64,000 bases of DNA from NCBI GenBank assembly GCA_025056455.1, contig JANWVY010000001.1:939757-1003756 (forward strand), written 5' to 3'. The notes beneath the pieces are model-generated. The model was not told where the DNA came from. It did no database searches and saw only the letters and a program-made list of their open reading frames with translations. Position 1 is the first letter of the stretch; every line of letters starts with the position of its first letter. The position numbers were made by a program, and so were the translations under genes. Below, piece by piece: positions 33,084 to 64,000 of this stretch. Origin of the DNA: Bryobacteraceae bacterium (lineage in GTDB: Bacteria > Acidobacteriota > Terriglobia > Bryobacterales > Bryobacteraceae).

Positions 33084-33770
33084 ATGAGTGCAGCAGCCAG
33101 CACGTTCGCGCAAAAGGCGCAATCCCACCGATTTTATGACTCCACGATCGGCAAGAAAGCGGTCATGGCCGTCACCGGGGCGATCCTGTTCGGCTTTGTC
33201 GTGGTTCATATGCTCGGTAACCTACAGGTCTATTTCGGCCCCGAGAAAATTAATGCTTACGGCGAGCTCCTGCATAGCTCTCCCGGTTTGCTATGGACAG
33301 CGCGCCTTATTTTGCTGACTTCCGTGGTGCTTCACATCGTTGCAGCCCTCCAGCTCGCAGCCTTGAATAAAAAGGCTCGACCCGTCGGCTATGTACGAAA
33401 GAAAAATATTGCCTCGACTTACGCGAGCCGCACGATGCTCGTGAGCGGGCCAATCATCTTTTTCTTCCTCGTTTACCACTTGCTGCACTTTACAACGGGT
33501 CAGGCTCATCCGAACTTTCGTGCCGGCGACGTGTATCACAACGTTATTGCCGGCTTCCAACAACCGGCCGCCTCTATCGCCTACATCGTGGCGATGATTC
33601 TCTTGGTGAACCACCTCCACCATGGCGTTTGGAGTATGTTCCAGAGTTTAGGCCTAAACCATCCTCGTTACATGCCATGGTTGCGACGTTTCTCTGCGGC
33701 TGCAGCCATTCTCATCGGTGTGGGTAACATCTCAATCCCGGTTTCCGTTCTAGCTGGATTGCTTCAGTAA
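33084..33770 (+). CDS. sdhC: Succinate dehydrogenase cytochrome b558 subunit
   Basis: A 228-residue membrane protein with five hydrophobic segments and His residues suited to bind two haems b ([51 protein letters not shown]). This matches the single-subunit membrane anchor of Bacillus/Bacteroides-type succinate:quinone oxidoreductase, not the SdhC/SdhD pair of Proteobacteria. It is followed by sdhA after 7 nt and sdhB, forming a complete sdhCAB operon. A TACAAT (32977-32982) is a weak -10 candidate about 100 nt upstream. Confidence 0.92.
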
Positions 33771-33777
33771 GACGACA

Positions 33778-35691
33778 ATGACCTTAGATTCTCGCATACC
33801 GTCCGGACCCATCGAGCAGAAGTGGGACCGTTGTAAGTTCGAGCTCAAACTGGTGAACCCAGCCAACAAACGTAAATTTCACATCATTGTGGTTGGTACA
33901 GGGTTAGCCGGTGGTTCCGCGGCCGCTTCGCTCGGCGAGTTAGGTTACAACGTGAAAGCTTTTTGCTTTCAGGATTCGCCGCGCCGAGCGCATTCAATTG
34001 CGGCTCAGGGCGGCATCAATGCTGCAAAAAACTATCAGAATGACGGCGACAGCATTTATCGCCTCTTTTACGACACGATCAAGGGTGGCGATTTTCGCGC
34101 ACGCGAAGCCAATGTCTACCGTTTAGCGCAAATCAGTGTGAACATCATTGATCAGTGCGTGGCCCAAGGTGTTCCTTTTGCGCGAGAATACGGAGGCCTT
34201 TTAGCCAACCGCTCCTTTGGGGGCGCCCAAGTTTCTCGTACGTTTTACGCTCGGGGTCAGACCGGGCAGCAATTGCTGCTCGGTTGCTATCAAGCGCTCG
34301 AACGCCAAGTCGACGCTGGGCGGGTGTTAATGTTCCCGCGAACCGAGATGCTCGATCTGATCGTTATCAACGGCAAAGCGCGGGGCATCGTGACTCGTAA
34401 CCTCATTACGGGAAAAATCGAAAGCCATCTGGCCGACGCCGTAATTCTGGCCACCGGGGGTTACGGTAACGTCTACTATTTGTCGACAAACGCCAAAGGT
34501 TCAAACGCCACGGCCATCTGGCGAGCTTACAAAAGAGGCGCTTTGATGGCCAACCCCTGTTTCACGCAAATTCACCCTACGTGTATTCCGGTTTCGGGGG
34601 ACTACCAATCGAAGCTCACGCTAATGAGTGAGTCGCTGCGCAACGACGGCCGCATTTGGGTCCCGTTGAAGAAGGGAGACAAGCGCCCCCCAACGGAGAT
34701 ACCAGAAGAAGAGCGCGATTATTATCTGGAACGGAAGTATCCCAGCTTCGGTAACCTCGTCCCGCGTGACGTGGCTTCGCGAGCCGCCAAGGCAGTGTGT
34801 GATGAAGGCCGGGGAGTCGGAGAAACAGGTCTGGGTGTGTACCTCGACTTCAGCGACGCCATTCGTCGCCTTGGCCGTAAAACCATCGAAGAGCGGTACG
34901 GAAACCTCTTTGAGATGTATGAGCGGATCACGGGCGAAGATCCCTATAAGACGCCGATGCGAATTTTTCCCGCCATTCACTACACCATGGGCGGTCTTTG
35001 GGTGGATTATCACTTAATGAGCACCATTCCCGGGCTCTTTGTCTTGGGTGAAGCGAATTTCTCCGACCACGGAGCAAACCGCTTGGGCGCCTCGGCCTTG
35101 ATGCAGGGACTCGCCGACGGTTACTTCATCATCCCTTACACCCTCGGCGACTATCTCGCCAATACGAAGCTGGAAAAGGTCGACGATTCGCACAGCGCGG
35201 TTAAAGATGCAGAGCGCGAAGTCACCGTACGAATCCAGAAATTGTTGTCCATCAAGGGTAAGCGTTCCGTTGACTCCTTCCATCGCGAGTTAGGCAAGCT
35301 GGTGTGGGATTACTGCGGCATGGCGCGGAACGCGAAAGGGTTGCAGTATGCCATGGGAAAGATCGCAGAACTTGCCGAGGAGTTCTACCACAACGTGAAC
35401 GTTGTTGGTGACGGCAATGAACTTAACCAGTCCTTGGAGAAAGCAGGACGCGTAGCTGACTTTTTTGAACTCGCTCAGCTCATGTGCCGGGACGCCTTAG
35501 AGCGCAACGAATCCTGCGGCGGGCACTTCCGCGAAGAATTTCAGACCCCCGAAGGCGAAGCGCTCCGTGACGACGAGAATTACTGTCACGTTGCGGCGTG
35601 GGAGTATAAGGGAGAGGGACAGAGCCCCGTTCTTCATAAAGAGCCTCTCCGCTTCGAATACGTGCATCTTACTCAGCGGAGCTACAAGTGA
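33778..35691 (+). CDS. sdhA: Succinate dehydrogenase/fumarate reductase flavoprotein subunit
   Basis: A 637-residue flavoprotein that oxidises succinate to fumarate. The FAD Rossmann motif [17 protein letters not shown] is near residue 40, the covalent-FAD region [19 protein letters not shown] follows, and the substrate/catalytic motifs include [21 protein letters not shown], and [10 protein letters not shown], with [18 protein letters not shown] near the second FAD contact. The length matches the Bacteroides/Bacillus-type (about 580-640). SdhA passes electrons to SdhB, with whose gene it overlaps by one base. Confidence 0.95.
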
Positions 35692-46355: not shown

Positions 46356-47519
46356 ATGAAAGTGAGTATGTTGTCGTGGCGTCGCCTTGATTCGCTGCTC
46401 CCGGTTGCGATGGCGGCGCTTTTTCTGCTTTCTCTGGCCGTCACTTTTCATCAGTACCGCGCTTTAGAAGCTCTCGAGAAGCGTCTCAACGAAATTCAGC
46501 GTCATCGCGTTGCTGTGCCGGTGGGAAAACGTTCGCTGAGCGTCGAAACCGTATTTTCGTTCCCCCCAACGCCGCAGTGCAGCCCCCAGCCTTCAGGCGT
46601 ACAGGCAGCAACGCTCGGTCATGCCAGCAAGGCGGGCGATCCTTTGTTGGAAACGCTTCGTGATCAATTGCATGGTGGGCTTTTGCTCAGCTTCGCCCTG
46701 CTTTTCGGTCTGATCCTAGGAGTGGCGCTGAGCCGCCGGGCCGCAGCCCGTGAAAGACGCCTCGCTGAGATGAAGTCGGCCTTTGTTTCCAATGTGTCGC
46801 ACGAGATGAAGACGCCGGTTTCCGTCATCCAGATGTACGCCGAGATGATGGAGTTGGGGCGTGTGCGCGATCCGGAAAAGCTCCGCGATTATTGTCGCGC
46901 CATCCAGAAGGAGAGCCAGCGGTTGAGCCGATTCATGGAAGACATCCTGGAGTGCGCGAAGCTAGAGAGCGGAAAGCGCGAGTTCTCCTTTTCCCGCGTT
47001 GACCTTTGCGAAGTTGTGGAGCGCGCTGTCGAGGAGTTTGAACCCGCCGCGCTATCGGCAGGTTGCGAACTTCAGCTCGAATCTTCAGGGCCGTTGTTTG
47101 CGCGCGCTGACGCCAAGGCTCTCAGCCAGGTTTTGCACAACCTGCTGAGCAACGCGCTCAAGTATTCGGCCGATGTAAAAGAGATTCGCGTCGTGGTTCG
47201 AAAGCAGGGAGGCCAAGCAGCAATTTCGGTTGCCGACCGCGGCATTGGAATTCCAGAGCCCGAGCAGCGCCGAATCTTTGAAAAATTCCATCGTGCCGAG
47301 TCCGAGCTAACTCACAACACGAAGGGGACAGGGCTTGGACTGGCCATCGCAGATCACATTGTCCGGGCCCACCAAGGACGCATTGCCGTGGCCAGCAAAC
47401 CGGGCGAGGGCAGCTGTTTCACGATCTTCTTACCGCTTGTTGAACCCTCGTCCCGCTTCACTGGCTCTACCGCTGTCTCTCCCGCGCATGACACCGAGAT
47501 TGTTGATCATCGAAGATGA
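46356..47519 (+). CDS. Two-component sensor histidine kinase
   Basis: A 387-residue membrane kinase. Two membrane helices (about 14-32 and 100-122) flank a short 70-residue periplasmic sensor; no HAMP domain is recognised. The dimerisation box SNVSHEMKTPVSVIQMYAEM holds the phosphorylated His (near 148), then the N box VLHNLLSNALKYS, G1 ADRGIGIPEPEQRRIFEKF and G2 TKGTGLGLAIADHIV. It overlaps the response regulator gene by 32 nt, so they form one pair. The signal is unknown. Confidence 0.93.
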   Translation: MKVSMLSWRRLDSLLPVAMAALFLLSLAVTFHQYRALEALEKRLNEIQRHRVAVPVGKRSLSVETVFSFPPTPQCSPQPSGVQAATLGHASKAGDPLLETLRDQLHGGLLLSFALLFGLILGVALSRRAAARERRLAEMKSAFVSNVSHEMKTPVSVIQMYAEMMELGRVRDPEKLRDYCRAIQKESQRLSRFMEDILECAKLESGKREFSFSRVDLCEVVERAVEEFEPAALSAGCELQLESSGPLFARADAKALSQVLHNLLSNALKYSADVKEIRVVVRKQGGQAAISVADRGIGIPEPEQRRIFEKFHRAESELTHNTKGTGLGLAIADHIVRAHQGRIAVASKPGEGSCFTIFLPLVEPSSRFTGSTAVSPAHDTEIVDHRR

Positions 47520-48168
47520 GGCGGAACTTGCCGCGGGGCTCAAGGATAGCTTTGAGTTTGAAGGCTACCAAGTCATCGTCGCCGCAGATGGTGAGCAAGG
47601 ACTTGAGGCGGCTGTGCACGAGAGGCCAGATCTCATCCTGCTCGATGTCATGTTGCCCAAGCTGAGCGGGCTCGAGGTTTGCAAAACACTGCGGCGTCGC
47701 GGGCTCACCATGCCCATCATCATGCTGACCGCTCGCGGAGATGAAACGGATAAGGTTACTGGACTCGAACTGGGCGCCGATGATTACGTCACCAAGCCAT
47801 TTTCTCTGCGCGAACTCACTGCCCGGGTCAAGGCCCAGCTCAGGCGCTCGCAAAATCCAGCCGACATTGAAGTCTACCGCTTTGGTTCGATTGTTCTCGA
47901 TTTCCGCCACAATCAGGCTCAGCGCGCTGGCCAAGAGCTGGAGCTCACGCCGCGCGAATTCGAGATTCTCCGCCATCTCATCCGACATCGAGGGGAGATC
48001 GTAACGCGCGAACAGCTACTCGAAGCCGTGTGGGGCATCACCAATTACCCGCTCACTCGCACGGTTGACAATCACATTGTGAAACTTCGGCAGAAGATTG
48101 AGGATTCTCCTGCCCATCCCAAATATCTTGTCACCGTACACCGGCTGGGATATAAGTTCGTCGGCTAG
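47488..48168 (+). CDS. OmpR/PhoB-type response regulator
   Basis: A 226-residue regulator. The receiver (LLIIEDEAELAAGL, phospho-Asp in DLILLDVMLPKLSG near 53, switch Thr in IIMLTARGD, and Lys in DDYVTKPFSLREL) is followed by a winged-helix effector (LELTPREFEILRHLIRHRGE, then REQLLEAVWGI, ending TRTVDNHIVKLRQKIEDSP and TVHRLGYKF). It starts inside the end of the kinase gene. It converges on the decaheme cytochrome operon, which is a possible but unproved target. Confidence 0.94.
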   Translation: MTPRLLIIEDEAELAAGLKDSFEFEGYQVIVAADGEQGLEAAVHERPDLILLDVMLPKLSGLEVCKTLRRRGLTMPIIMLTARGDETDKVTGLELGADDYVTKPFSLRELTARVKAQLRRSQNPADIEVYRFGSIVLDFRHNQAQRAGQELELTPREFEILRHLIRHRGEIVTREQLLEAVWGITNYPLTRTVDNHIVKLRQKIEDSPAHPKYLVTVHRLGYKFVG

Positions 48169-48243: not shown

Positions 48244-48450
48244 TTACTTTGAACACGCTTTCATGTCTTTTTTGGCTTCGTAACACTTACCAACGTCGTT
48301 GAGCTCTTTGGATTTTGCCGTGACATGACACACAGCGCAACCCTTTTTCTCCTTCTTGGTGTACTCCGGTGTACCGAATGAGACAGGGACCAAAGACAAC
48401 AACCCAACCGCCAAGACAAAACCAGAGATAATCGCCGGAATTTTCTTCAT
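48244..48450 (-). CDS. Small exported CxxCH protein (probable monohaem cytochrome c)
   Basis: A 68-residue protein with a signal peptide (KKIPAIISGFVLAVGLLSLV) and one haem-binding motif GCAVCHVTAK, then a Lys-rich tail with two more Cys residues (KCYEAKKDMKACSK). The start at 48450 has AAAGG about 9 nt upstream; an ATG three codons before is possible. It follows the barrel gene by 26 nt and completes a likely operon. The size and pattern fit the short 'KxxKxCxxCH' haem proteins I recall from Acidobacteriota and Deltaproteobacteria. Confidence 0.78.
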   Translation of the reverse strand: MKKIPAIISGFVLAVGLLSLVPVSFGTPEYTKKEKKGCAVCHVTAKSKELNDVGKCYEAKKDMKACSK

Positions 48451-48476
48451 GCCGTTCATCCTTTCCTTCTATCACA

Positions 48477-50462
48477 TCAATAGATCCGGAGCCCAACCAA
48501 GCCCTGATGAGTCCGGAAGCCCTCGTAGGCGTAAAAGGTCTGCGCGACGCCCCACCAGCGATACTCACTGAATAATTCCACATGTTTCACCACCGGCGCC
48601 GTCAAGCGCACAACCGGCTGATAGAATTCGGTTGGCCTGCTACCGGAGGAAAGAAACGCGCTGCCGCCCAGACTGAGCCTTGGCCGCCAGCTCCAGCTTG
48701 ATGGCGGAGCAACGCTCACAAGAGCTGTCACGGTGTGCGCATTCTCGCGGTAAAACGAGCGTTCCCGGAAAGACAGCATCTGAGGGGTCAAGTACTCGAG
48801 GTTGGATCGAATGGTGGAGCGGGAATATTCACCGAGCAACTGCAGCCGCTTGGCCCCCGGTAGCCATTGAATTCCCACGGCGGTTTGCTGGTTTCTAAAC
48901 TCGAACGCATTGAAACGGGGAGGATTCTGATTATCGAGATAGTGCCAGGCGCCGTAAACAAGAAGGCTTGGCCGGGCTTGATAGCGGGCTCTCAGGCGAA
49001 ACCGTTCGTAATCGGTCAGGCTGGTTCGGTACAGGACCCGGTCACTGCGAGCGATCTCGGCATCCCAGTTCAGGGACACCGAAGAAGCCAAACGCAAGGC
49101 TGCTCCCGCCAGGGCCACATGGCGGCGGAGCTCTCCGCTTTCAAACGGCGTCCGGCCGAGCAATCCGCTTCGGCCCAGGCCATCCCCCCAAACATAGCGG
49201 TAGCCGCCGCGCAAGGTGAGGAATCTGGTCAAATCGATCAAGAGTTCTGACTGCTGCTGGCTGTAGTTCCAGTGCAAGCGGTCCACAACGGGCGTATCTC
49301 GCAAAGCGGTCGCATTGTGCAGACGATCCGTCATCCAGGATTGCATCCAGCGGAGGCGGGCTCCTAATCTCAGGTCAGCTCCGAGATTGGCCGTCATATG
49401 CGGTTGTTTTGATGCTCCCAGCAGGCGGATATTCTGAGCGCTGAGAAATAGCAACGAATCAAGATCAATGAACAAACCGGTGTTCGTTTGCCGGTAATCT
49501 ACATCATTCCGCGGCTGGCTGAACTGGAAGGCGCCGGATAGGTCCACCCAGCTGGCGGGCTGAGCATTGAGCGCGCCTCGCGTAAAGATGCTGCTGCCCC
49601 GCACACGGTAGGCCTGCAGCAAATCGTCTAGAAAAAGCGTGCGGCCGAAGAGAGGCTGGGCGAGGTTGCCAGTATGGCGTCCATTGTTGAACAGCCGCTG
49701 GTTATCACGAAACTGAATACCGCCCTGTTCGAAGAACATGTGAAAATTCCGCCTCTCCAGCCGGACGCCGCCCCGGTAGAGATTCGCCGCATCATCCAGT
49801 TCATTCACCACAGGATATTCATTCGCGTCAGAAACAAAGCCGGTGACTCCCCGCCCAAAACCGTGATCTCGGACGAAACTCACATAGGGGATGATGACGC
49901 TGGTGGGGAGAAGATCCAACTGCAGCTCGGTGAACCGGCGGGCAATGTCAAATGATCTCTGGTTGGCGAGAATGCCGCGAGCCAGTTGAGGATTGGCAAA
50001 CGACGGCATCGCGTTAAAGTATGCCGTCGAGCGGTGGTCCGCCGTGAAACGGTAGGAACGGGGTTCTTCCGCACGGAACCTAAGCCAAGACGCCGGATCA
50101 CCTCCCCAACCTGCTCCCTGAAACTCAGCTCGCTTTAAAAACCCCAAACCGGGAGGATCATATCTCATGTCCCAAGCGGTTAAGCGGGGTCCTTCACCCA
50201 GGTTCACAATACTACGGTAGGTATCGTAGTGGCCATTCACGGCTTGGATCCAGCGCACGCCAACCTCAATCTCTGAGCGGAAGGCAGGTTCGCTTGGCGT
50301 CCCCTTGCTTTTGGTTTCTTGCTCGGGCTGAGCTTGTGTTTTTGCCTCGCTAGTGGCTTCAGGATCGCGGGGTGACTGGGCAGGTTGGACGCCTTGCCCG
50401 GCAACCAGCAAGAGGGGCCAGAAAAACGCGCCCACGGCGAAATGAGATATGTGGCGTCTCAT
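48477..50462 (-). CDS. Outer-membrane beta-barrel, MtrB/PioB-like partner of a decaheme cytochrome
   Basis: About 661 residues from an ATG overlapping the upstream stop (ATGA), so translation is coupled to the cytochrome. A signal peptide (HFAVGAFFWPLLLVAGQG), a charged Pro/Thr/Glu linker (about 35-65), and then about 580 residues of alternating strands typical of a 24-28 stranded porin: RFRAEEPRSYRFTADHRS, RLRWMQSWMTDRLHN, LSLNWDAEIARSD-type strands. It ends with an aromatic residue (RIY). MtrB/PioB barrels hold a decaheme cytochrome across the outer membrane. The N-terminal CxxC of Shewanella MtrB is not seen. The family call is by size, pattern and partner. Confidence 0.72.
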   Translation of the reverse strand: MRRHISHFAVGAFFWPLLLVAGQGVQPAQSPRDPEATSEAKTQAQPEQETKSKGTPSEPAFRSEIEVGVRWIQAVNGHYDTYRSIVNLGEGPRLTAWDMRYDPPGLGFLKRAEFQGAGWGGDPASWLRFRAEEPRSYRFTADHRSTAYFNAMPSFANPQLARGILANQRSFDIARRFTELQLDLLPTSVIIPYVSFVRDHGFGRGVTGFVSDANEYPVVNELDDAANLYRGGVRLERRNFHMFFEQGGIQFRDNQRLFNNGRHTGNLAQPLFGRTLFLDDLLQAYRVRGSSIFTRGALNAQPASWVDLSGAFQFSQPRNDVDYRQTNTGLFIDLDSLLFLSAQNIRLLGASKQPHMTANLGADLRLGARLRWMQSWMTDRLHNATALRDTPVVDRLHWNYSQQQSELLIDLTRFLTLRGGYRYVWGDGLGRSGLLGRTPFESGELRRHVALAGAALRLASSVSLNWDAEIARSDRVLYRTSLTDYERFRLRARYQARPSLLVYGAWHYLDNQNPPRFNAFEFRNQQTAVGIQWLPGAKRLQLLGEYSRSTIRSNLEYLTPQMLSFRERSFYRENAHTVTALVSVAPPSSWSWRPRLSLGGSAFLSSGSRPTEFYQPVVRLTAPVVKHVELFSEYRWWGVAQTFYAYEGFRTHQGLVGLRIY

Positions 50463-51355
50463 CGTAGCAAGCTCCGGTTCACATGCGATCCATGAATCTT
50501 CACGTGACAAATCGTGCAGTTCTGAATGCGGCTGCTTCGCAAGTCATGAAATGCAGGCGGCGGTCCGCCAAGCGTCCCAGCAGCTACGCTTAGGTTCGAG
50601 TGACATTCCAAACACTGCAGCCGCACCTCTTGCCGGGTAAGCATTCGAGGGTTGGCTGAGCCATGGGGCTCATGACAGGCGCGGCATCCCTCCATGCGCA
50701 TCGGCGCATGCTCGAAGGTGAACGGACCGCGTTTGTCGCCATGACAACGAAAGCAGCCGGGCTCATTCGCCGAGACCACCCGCAACGCTGTGGGAATCTC
50801 CCGGCCATGCGGATTATGGCAATCCACGCAGCGAATTCCGCCTTCTTGGAAACGGTGCCGATAGGGTTTCTGAAACTCGGCTAGCGTGGCGACGTGACAA
50901 CTTCCGCAGTCTTCGGCCGGTTTCTTCCGCGCACTGTCATGAATGCTGTGGCACTGGGTGCAAGCCACCTCGCTCCGCGCGTGACCACCAAAAATGTTGC
51001 CTACTTGAGTCACTTGATTGCGGTGACAACTGAGACAAGCTTGGTCGCCTTTGCGAGGAGGCATCTTTGCCGGGTTATCAATGTCGGTGGGCGAAGCCGA
51101 CTCTGCGTGAATACTCCCAGGACCGTGGCAAGATTCGCAGGCCCTCTCCTTCCAACCGTGTTTGCTGTGGCTTTCGACAATAAAGTGCGGATTCTTTTCA
51201 AAGGCCCGTGAGATCTCCTCATGACAGCCCTGGCAAGTGACCGAACCCATGTATTCGGCCTTTGTTTTCTTCGGTTTGTCTTTGGCTGTGGCAACCGTGA
51301 GAGCAGCCAAACACAAAACCGATAACAGCGCCGTCCGCCAAGGCAAGAGGTTCAT
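50459..51355 (-). CDS. Periplasmic decaheme c-type cytochrome, DmsE/MtrA-like
   Basis: A 298-residue protein with a signal peptide (WRTALLSVLCLAALTVATA) and ten CxxCH haem sites: CQGCH, CESCH, CLSCH, CTQCH, CGSCH, CVDCH, CFRCH, CRACH, CLECH and CTICH. The count, length and C-terminal HGSANPR stretch fit the DmsE/MtrA family, which carries electrons across the outer membrane inside a porin. No MtrC/OmcA surface cytochrome or DMSO reductase genes follow, so the terminal acceptor is unknown. A good GTGAGGT ribosome site precedes the ATG. Confidence 0.9.
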   Translation of the reverse strand: MNLLPWRTALLSVLCLAALTVATAKDKPKKTKAEYMGSVTCQGCHEEISRAFEKNPHFIVESHSKHGWKERACESCHGPGSIHAESASPTDIDNPAKMPPRKGDQACLSCHRNQVTQVGNIFGGHARSEVACTQCHSIHDSARKKPAEDCGSCHVATLAEFQKPYRHRFQEGGIRCVDCHNPHGREIPTALRVVSANEPGCFRCHGDKRGPFTFEHAPMRMEGCRACHEPHGSANPRMLTRQEVRLQCLECHSNLSVAAGTLGGPPPAFHDLRSSRIQNCTICHVKIHGSHVNRSLLR

Positions 51356-62709: not shown

Positions 62710-63726
62710 TCACGGCTTCGGCTCGGAAGTAGTCCTCGGAGACGGGAAAAGTTGGCGCGCCTGGAAGCGCGAGAGCAACTCTGCTGAACAAGGCCGCACC
62801 GAACAAGCCGTCGCTAGCGCGTCGGCCACAGCGCCCTCCGGAGCCACAATCGAAACAGGTTTGGAGCGAGTGAGACCCAATCCAATGGCTGGATCCAAGA
62901 TGTGCGAATAGCGCAGGCCGCCGATTTCGACAAACTGATGCTCATCGCCGCTCGTGGAGATTGCCGCGTTCTGTAAGGCGTAAACTTCACCCTCAGCTTC
63001 AATCATCCACCCTGCCTTACCTGGGGGCGGATCGCCTACGGCGATATCCCCGCTCACAGCAACGAGGACACGGCTCACTCCCAGCGAGCGTAGCAGCCGC
63101 ACGACTTCGCTGGCCGCAAACCCCTTGGCGATTCCTCCAGCATCAAGCAACATCGAATCGCGTAGCAGCGTAACCGTGTGCCGGCGTTTGTCAATCCGCA
63201 AGAATTGATAGCCGCAGCGCTGGCGTGCGATTGCGACGGCGTAGGGTTCGGGAAGTTGCTTCGTCTTTCTCGCTTCTCGCCAAAGAGACACAAGCGGTCC
63301 GAGAGTGATGTCGAAGGCTCCCCCTGTAGCCTGAGCGATTTCTTGAGCCAGCTCGATGACCCGCATCACGTCGTGGCTCACAGGGATGGGGACACCCTTG
63401 GGAGAACGGCTCAGCCGCGTAAACTCGCTGTCCGGACGGTAATCGGAGAGCTTCTCCTCGAGCTCCCGGATGCGCTGAAAGGCCCGCTCAAAGACACGTT
63501 GCGCGGCGACCGCATCCCGGGCGTAGAGCCGGATTTGCACGAGGGTCCCCATGTGTGGCTCGACCGCTTCGAAACGCTCGAGCGAGGCGCCGTGGAGCGC
63601 AACCAGCGAGTTGCAGCTGACCAAAACCGCGCCCCAAAAGACCCTCCAAGCGAGACGAAACCCACACGCGGAGCGCTTGGCGCCGGAACGTTGCCCCAGA
63701 AAGCTCGACCCCTGGCCCCCTCGCAT
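62710..63726 (-). CDS. apbE: FAD:protein FMN transferase (ApbE family)
   Basis: A 338-residue ApbE that attaches FMN to Thr or Ser in proteins such as NqrC, RnfG or flavinylated reductases. The N-terminus has a signal with a lipobox-like LVSC, so it may be a lipoprotein. Motifs are PHMGTLVQIRLYARD, LSDYRPDSEFTRLSRS, MLLDAGGIAKGFAASEVV, ISTSGDEHQFVEIGG followed by HILDPAIG, and VADALATAC near the metal site. The ATG at 63726 shares its first base with the upstream stop (TGATG), so it is coupled to the gene before it. Long frames upstream of this start are not part of the protein. Confidence 0.9.
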   Translation of the reverse strand: MRGGQGSSFLGQRSGAKRSACGFRLAWRVFWGAVLVSCNSLVALHGASLERFEAVEPHMGTLVQIRLYARDAVAAQRVFERAFQRIRELEEKLSDYRPDSEFTRLSRSPKGVPIPVSHDVMRVIELAQEIAQATGGAFDITLGPLVSLWREARKTKQLPEPYAVAIARQRCGYQFLRIDKRRHTVTLLRDSMLLDAGGIAKGFAASEVVRLLRSLGVSRVLVAVSGDIAVGDPPPGKAGWMIEAEGEVYALQNAAISTSGDEHQFVEIGGLRYSHILDPAIGLGLTRSKPVSIVAPEGAVADALATACSVRPCSAELLSRFQARQLFPSPRTTSEPKP

Positions 63727-64000
63727 CACTCTTTTTCTACGCCGCTGTTCCAGTAATGGAACATCTCTTCCGCCGTGGGCACTCTCAGCGGACGTACCAA
63801 CCGAAAGCCGAGCCATTGGGCGTCGGTGTGATACCAAATACTCTTCGGTAGCTGGGGGTCCTGCATCTTCCAACTGGGATCCGAGGGGGTGCGCGCGGCG
63901 CAACGCAAACTCGCAGCGTCGTCGTTCCAAGAGCCGCCCCGCACCGCGTGCGGATAGGGCTTCGTGGCTTTCACCCACGGCATGCGCGCAGGGCCGGGGC
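63726..64000 (-). CDS. Formylglycine-generating enzyme (SUMF1) family protein, 3' end only
   Basis: Only the C-terminal 91 residues are in the window. They carry the SUMF1/FGE signature [20 protein letters not shown], then [20 protein letters not shown] and the closing [10 protein letters not shown]. The rest is beyond 64000. True FGEs oxidise Cys to formylglycine on sulfatases; most relatives have other roles. The active-site cysteines of canonical FGEs cannot be judged from this piece. It overlaps apbE by one base. Confidence 0.85.

Follow-up and report, generated by a model that had tools for sequence, protein, structure and literature searches.

We have identified three adjoining genes in a Bryobacteraceae genome that very probably encode an MtrAB-type outer-membrane electron conduit, most likely akin to the Mtr conduit of Shewanella but diverged from it. 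The genes lie on the minus strand of a 64,000-nucleotide stretch of DNA (the window) from a 4.98 Mb genome that is 98.9% complete (G000), in the order decahaem cytochrome, barrel and one-haem protein. The original prediction of a porin-cytochrome conduit is supported by the predicted MtrB fold of the barrel and by the conserved gene pair, and its coordinates and strand for the three genes were correct. The features of the locus and its surroundings are as follows:

50459–51355, minus strand: MtrA/DmsE-type decahaem c-type cytochrome, 298 amino acids (TIGR03508, 6r2q chain A and CXXCH count)
48477–50462, minus strand: outer-membrane beta-barrel of predicted MtrB fold, 661 amino acids
48244–48450, minus strand: small one-haem protein, 68 amino acids
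51441–52958: fumarate hydratase, beside the cytochrome gene
46356–48168: two-component genes, considered as regulators and convergent with the conduit genes
33084–35691 and 62710–63978: subunits resembling succinate dehydrogenase/fumarate reductase, and an ApbE-family protein, which may have a bearing on respiration

The genes are as tightly packed as had been claimed (gaps under 30 nt). The cytochrome stop codon overlaps the barrel start codon as ATGA, and 26 nt separate the barrel from the small gene when the latter starts at 48450; a start at 48459 would extend its product to 71 amino acids. An in-frame start codon is found at the equivalent overlap position in 72 of the 78 related loci holding both genes. 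Promoter- and terminator-like sites were about as numerous as in shuffled sequence. A fumarate hydratase like that of the window precedes the cytochrome in four relatives from the same genus (L083, L086, L087 and L089), and thus the window locus occupies the orthologous place.

Ten CXXCH motifs occur in the cytochrome, far above the maximum of 3 (mean 0.11) reached when its residues were shuffled 20,000 times, which bears out the earlier ten-haem assignment; no other protein among 324 window open reading frames of at least 60 amino acids has more than one. Its N terminus looks signal-peptide-like by eye. The protein exceeds the curated cut-off of TIGR03508, the DmsE family (226.8 versus 192.2 bits), and differs from the Geobacter GSU2203/GSU2204 families in matching the GSU2203-family model NF041028 at only 189.1 bits (cut-off 325), with one of 54 related barrels matching NF041027 (NCBIfam), weakly. 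Residues 36–291 match chain A of 6r2q (E 1.8e-33), which we take to be MtrA; the fold library names this entry 'Structure of the Mtr complex', and the sequence file gives chain A an unrelated molecule name. Across an alignment of 56 rows (the window and 55 of the 80 related loci considered below), the ten CXXCH motifs are invariant, as are exactly ten other histidines (57, 83, 125, 139, 167, 183, 216, 231, 270 and 288), the pattern that would be expected for bis-histidine haems. The Mtr crystal structure is described as containing 20 bis-histidine haems (PMC7198977).

The DmsE name of the cytochrome model would fit a DmsEF-like conduit serving DMSO or another extracellular reductase. We regard this as very improbable, as the conserved partner in relatives is OmcA/MtrC, and no molybdopterin oxidoreductase is among the matches listed for 38 window proteins (30 of them at E ≤ 1e-6) in a scan of the larger, non-overlapping frames beyond the first 4.9 kb, consistent with the original statement that a DMSO reductase is lacking.

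The barrel contains no cysteine and matches no model in Pfam at E ≤ 10, PF11854 included, or in NCBIfam at E ≤ 1, TIGR03509 included; the description of a divergent type therefore holds at the sequence level. The proposed comparison with MtrB/PioB profiles thus gave nothing for the window barrel itself and succeeded for part of its family: of 54 barrel sequences, PF11854 (MtrB_PioB) matches 13 (best 3.8e-9) and TIGR03509 five (best 7.6e-7) at E ≤ 0.01. When relatives were scanned singly, two of ten matched PF11854; one of them, L134, scored 24.1 bits (cut-off 23), no single region of it passing by itself. In the genome search, relatives gave PF11854 matches that were weak and under the cut-off, and the window genome yielded none at E ≤ 0.01. 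Proof of MtrB likeness from sequence alone was sought and abandoned: searching PDB sequences with phmmer and with profiles gave nothing meaningful, and when four canonical MtrB-type barrels were compared by hhalign, only 77–82 N-terminal columns aligned, at a probability of <4%.

Fold comparison settled the likeness. The predicted structure has 27 strand elements, compared with the 26 strands described for MtrB (PMC7198977), and MtrB was by far the top-ranking structure, well clear of the remaining barrels in the list, at 14% identity in the structural alignment. The predicted fold is that of MtrB, and a barrel unrelated to porin-cytochrome families, which together with too small a lumen was named at the outset as speaking against a conduit, is not what the model gives.

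Shewanella-type MtrB carries an N-terminal CxxC. Its absence from the window barrel had been noted correctly and offered as a distinguishing mark; it does not set the locus apart, because it is common to all 27 barrel stretches checked (own included), of which 23 are cysteine-free and none has two cysteines 1–4 residues apart.

The barrel is matched at E ≤ 0.001 in 40 of 61 genomes (own included) and 28 of 38 genera, in some by weaker paralogues only, and its profile in 69 of 297 genomes of a phylum sample. We examined all of the best 80 of 113 relatives from genome contigs. These are labelled Acidobacteriota, often Bryobacterales, Bryobacteraceae or Solibacter, with one exception: L085, a contig labelled Candidatus Sumerlaeaceae whose barrel is 53% identical to that of the window, possibly a misplaced contig or binning error. 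The cytochrome is present in 78 of the 80 loci; the two exceptions, L126 and L143, begin at the end of a contig. Within the fetched stretch, 67 loci have an OmcA/MtrC-family gene, 41 a tetrahaem cytochrome (class I-type domains in the one example scanned) and 35 a NapC/NirT-like five-haem protein. Among the 13 loci without MtrC, the contig ends too close in seven (L082, L085, L097, L100, L126, L143 and L149); the remaining six (L084, L088, L119, L123, L124 and L136) have sequence on both sides (>8.8 kb ahead of the cytochrome, several kb beyond the barrel) and show no MtrC at the threshold used.

Directly after the barrel (≤400 nt) stands a tetrahaem gene (41 loci), a homologue of the small protein (15), a NapC-like gene (2), none of these (19) or a contig end (3). 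A survey of the three-gene order finds the cytochrome–barrel pair kept and the small protein as a variable third member, present anywhere in the stretch in 21 of the 80 loci. The N terminus of this protein looks hydrophobic by eye; besides its single CXXCH it has two more cysteines, which four homologues (L106, L109, L117 and L126) lack, and it matches no Pfam family. It may carry electrons or help assembly. In one relative (L077:9357-10103; G001:C391), a 68–69 amino acid one-haem protein occurs in three tandem copies between barrel and MtrC.

These loci resemble the MtrCAB 'Group 5' described from five Acidobacteriia hits (Acidobacteriia/Bryobacterales), in which a tetrahaem cytochrome lies immediately downstream of mtrB (PMC8805035). 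The gene order is the same, with MtrA, MtrB and MtrC clustered and a tetrahaem gene after the barrel in about half the loci; we infer from the published description, rather than from accessions, that Group 5 is this family. The window locus differs in having neither MtrC nor a tetrahaem gene, and a one-haem protein instead. In addition, the passages on Group 5 report no putative inner-membrane quinone oxidoreductase nearby, in contrast to the NapC-like genes of many loci here. MtrCAB is defined in the same source by mtrC, mtrA and mtrB in one cluster; in the window genome, a different contig carries the MtrC-family gene. Compared with Shewanella oneidensis MtrCAB (6r2q; PMC7198977), the window system likewise differs in its unlinked MtrC, as well as in its cysteine-free barrel of low identity.

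That gene (G000:C22:268508-270400) is the genome's single TIGR03507 match at E ≤ 1e-5 (504.7 bits, cut-off 209.3) and has Pfam MtrC/MtrF domains. The reported lack of a surface MtrC-type cytochrome is therefore true of the window and not of the genome. A view of the locus as a basically MtrC-free type is ruled out, because most related loci have an MtrC and the window genome has one elsewhere. In MtrC trees, this orphan groups with unlinked MtrC of G002, G003, G008, G009 and G011 (support 100/99), and the locus-linked MtrC of G001, G002, G004, G005, G006, G007 and G010 form a separate group (100/100). The orphan's next neighbours are L101 and the locus-linked MtrC of G013.

Within its genus, the window's barrel is the earliest branch of the barrel tree, although the fork uniting the other ten has support of only 81/78; G003, G009 and G011 nest with G005 and G002 (97/98), both of which have a linked MtrC. 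Thus, if linkage is ancestral, the trees suggest that a linked MtrC became absent at least twice independently; alternatively, MtrC may have been gained in other lines instead of lost in that of the window. The position of linked MtrC differs, following the small gene in the window's genus and preceding the cytochrome in other genera, which argues that this genus itself saw rearrangement.

Among the 11 genus members with the barrel, the four without linked-type MtrC (the window genome, G003, G009 and G011) all have the orphan type, compared with one (G002) of the seven with linked MtrC. This tally, which includes incomplete genomes (G003, 89%; G009, 85%) and few independent events, hints that the orphan is functionally paired with this conduit. 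In G009 the contig ends ~0.6 kb past the small gene, and linkage there could be assessed solely from the other MtrC genes of that genome. G008 (99% complete) has the orphan type and no match to this barrel, so the orphan does not necessarily serve this conduit. We tentatively propose that in two separate lines of the genus the conduit operates without a linked surface cytochrome, either bare like PioAB or with the distant MtrC paralogue, and with the one-haem protein replacing the tetrahaem carrier. If true, the MtrAB core would be re-usable with swapped outer and periplasmic partners.

A decaying remnant, in which the pair no longer works without linked MtrC, would also account for the lack of that gene in the window genome and in the G003/G009/G011 group. 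We consider decay hardly likely, as the ten haem motifs, ten further conserved histidines, intact frames and gene overlap are all kept, and ten-haem cytochrome and barrel frames are intact in G003, G009 and G011 too.

In the working conduit that we favour, the cytochrome would form a complex with the barrel and thread it, serving as a bis-histidine haem wire that the barrel insulates and holds across the outer membrane. Electrons would most likely leave an inner-membrane NapC/NirT-like quinol oxidase; a candidate five-haem protein is encoded at C22:308122-309498 (PF03264, E 2e-8; 57% identical to the NapC-like protein of the G007 cluster). After crossing the periplasm, perhaps with the one-haem protein as carrier, they would run along the MtrA-like wire to an outer acceptor, either directly or via the orphan OmcA/MtrC-family cytochrome, which could act as outlet. 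The genome also has three cytochrome c assembly matches. Against a conduit stand the position of the genes for its surface and inner-membrane partners away from the locus, the marginal profile alignment with canonical MtrB-type barrels and the lack of an MtrB/PioB model match for the window barrel itself.

Outward flow is favoured on two grounds: in relatives the pair is linked to OmcA/MtrC and NapC-like proteins, and a search of the genome found no RuBisCO large subunit. The same observations make unlikely an MtrC-free conduit of the PioAB/MtoAB kind, bringing electrons inward from Fe(II) or a solid donor, since OmcA/MtrC is kept in 67 and NapC/NirT-like proteins in 35 of the 80 stretches. 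PioAB and MtoAB have no MtrC gene beside the core, as at the window locus, and the small c-type cytochrome next door would also suit such a system. Both are named as MtrAB-core systems in PMC8805035, which adds that Mtr conduits can be made to run in both directions.

Respiration of iron and humic substances by Acidobacteriota has been proposed and little tested. Decahaem cytochromes in tundra soil have pointed to Acidobacteria as possible iron reducers (PMC3669403); the text of PMC11475568 contains no term beginning Acidobacteri- or Bryobacter-, and that of PMC4245776 no Acidobacter-, Koribacter, Solibacter or Geothrix. As far as the literature searched shows, three observations are new: an MtrB fold mostly missed by standard models, NapC-like genes near many such clusters, and scattered absence of linked MtrC within one genus. 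PF11854 fails to match 41 of 54 barrels at E ≤ 0.01, so this conduit would tend to escape surveys of extracellular electron transfer that rely on profiles. In this genus, the same locus is also available in natural variants that have or lack a linked MtrC.

Other electron-transfer loci were seen in these genomes. A second decahaem–barrel pair in the window genome (G000:C24:72498-75018; L073:8373-11340), its barrel 26% identical, is followed by a 102 amino acid membrane-like protein, with no other CXXCH gene in the 19 kb read. Proteins of 1060–1068 and 212–213 amino acids, similar by eye (L073:4406-8310 and L079:12472-16367), adjoin this second pair in the window genome but the first pair in G007, an arrangement that may reflect exchange between the loci. 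Canonical MtrB/PioB-type barrels adjoin multihaem cytochromes at four places in the family (G010:C69, G010:C197, G002:C177 and G014:C213), all but G010:C197 with OmcA/MtrC on the same contig. None shows a tetrahaem gene, since a seven-haem gene directly follows the barrel at G014:C213 and G010:C69, and no haem gene does so at G010:C197 and G002:C177. Finally, a single open frame of 1164 amino acids with 27 CXXCH (L080:7814-11305, minus strand; G044:C12) comprises, by eye, a membrane part like NapC/NirT, four trihaem repeats, a stretch resembling a signal peptide and a decahaem part of MtrA type; it is either a genuine wire from inner to outer membrane or two genes with no intervening stop.
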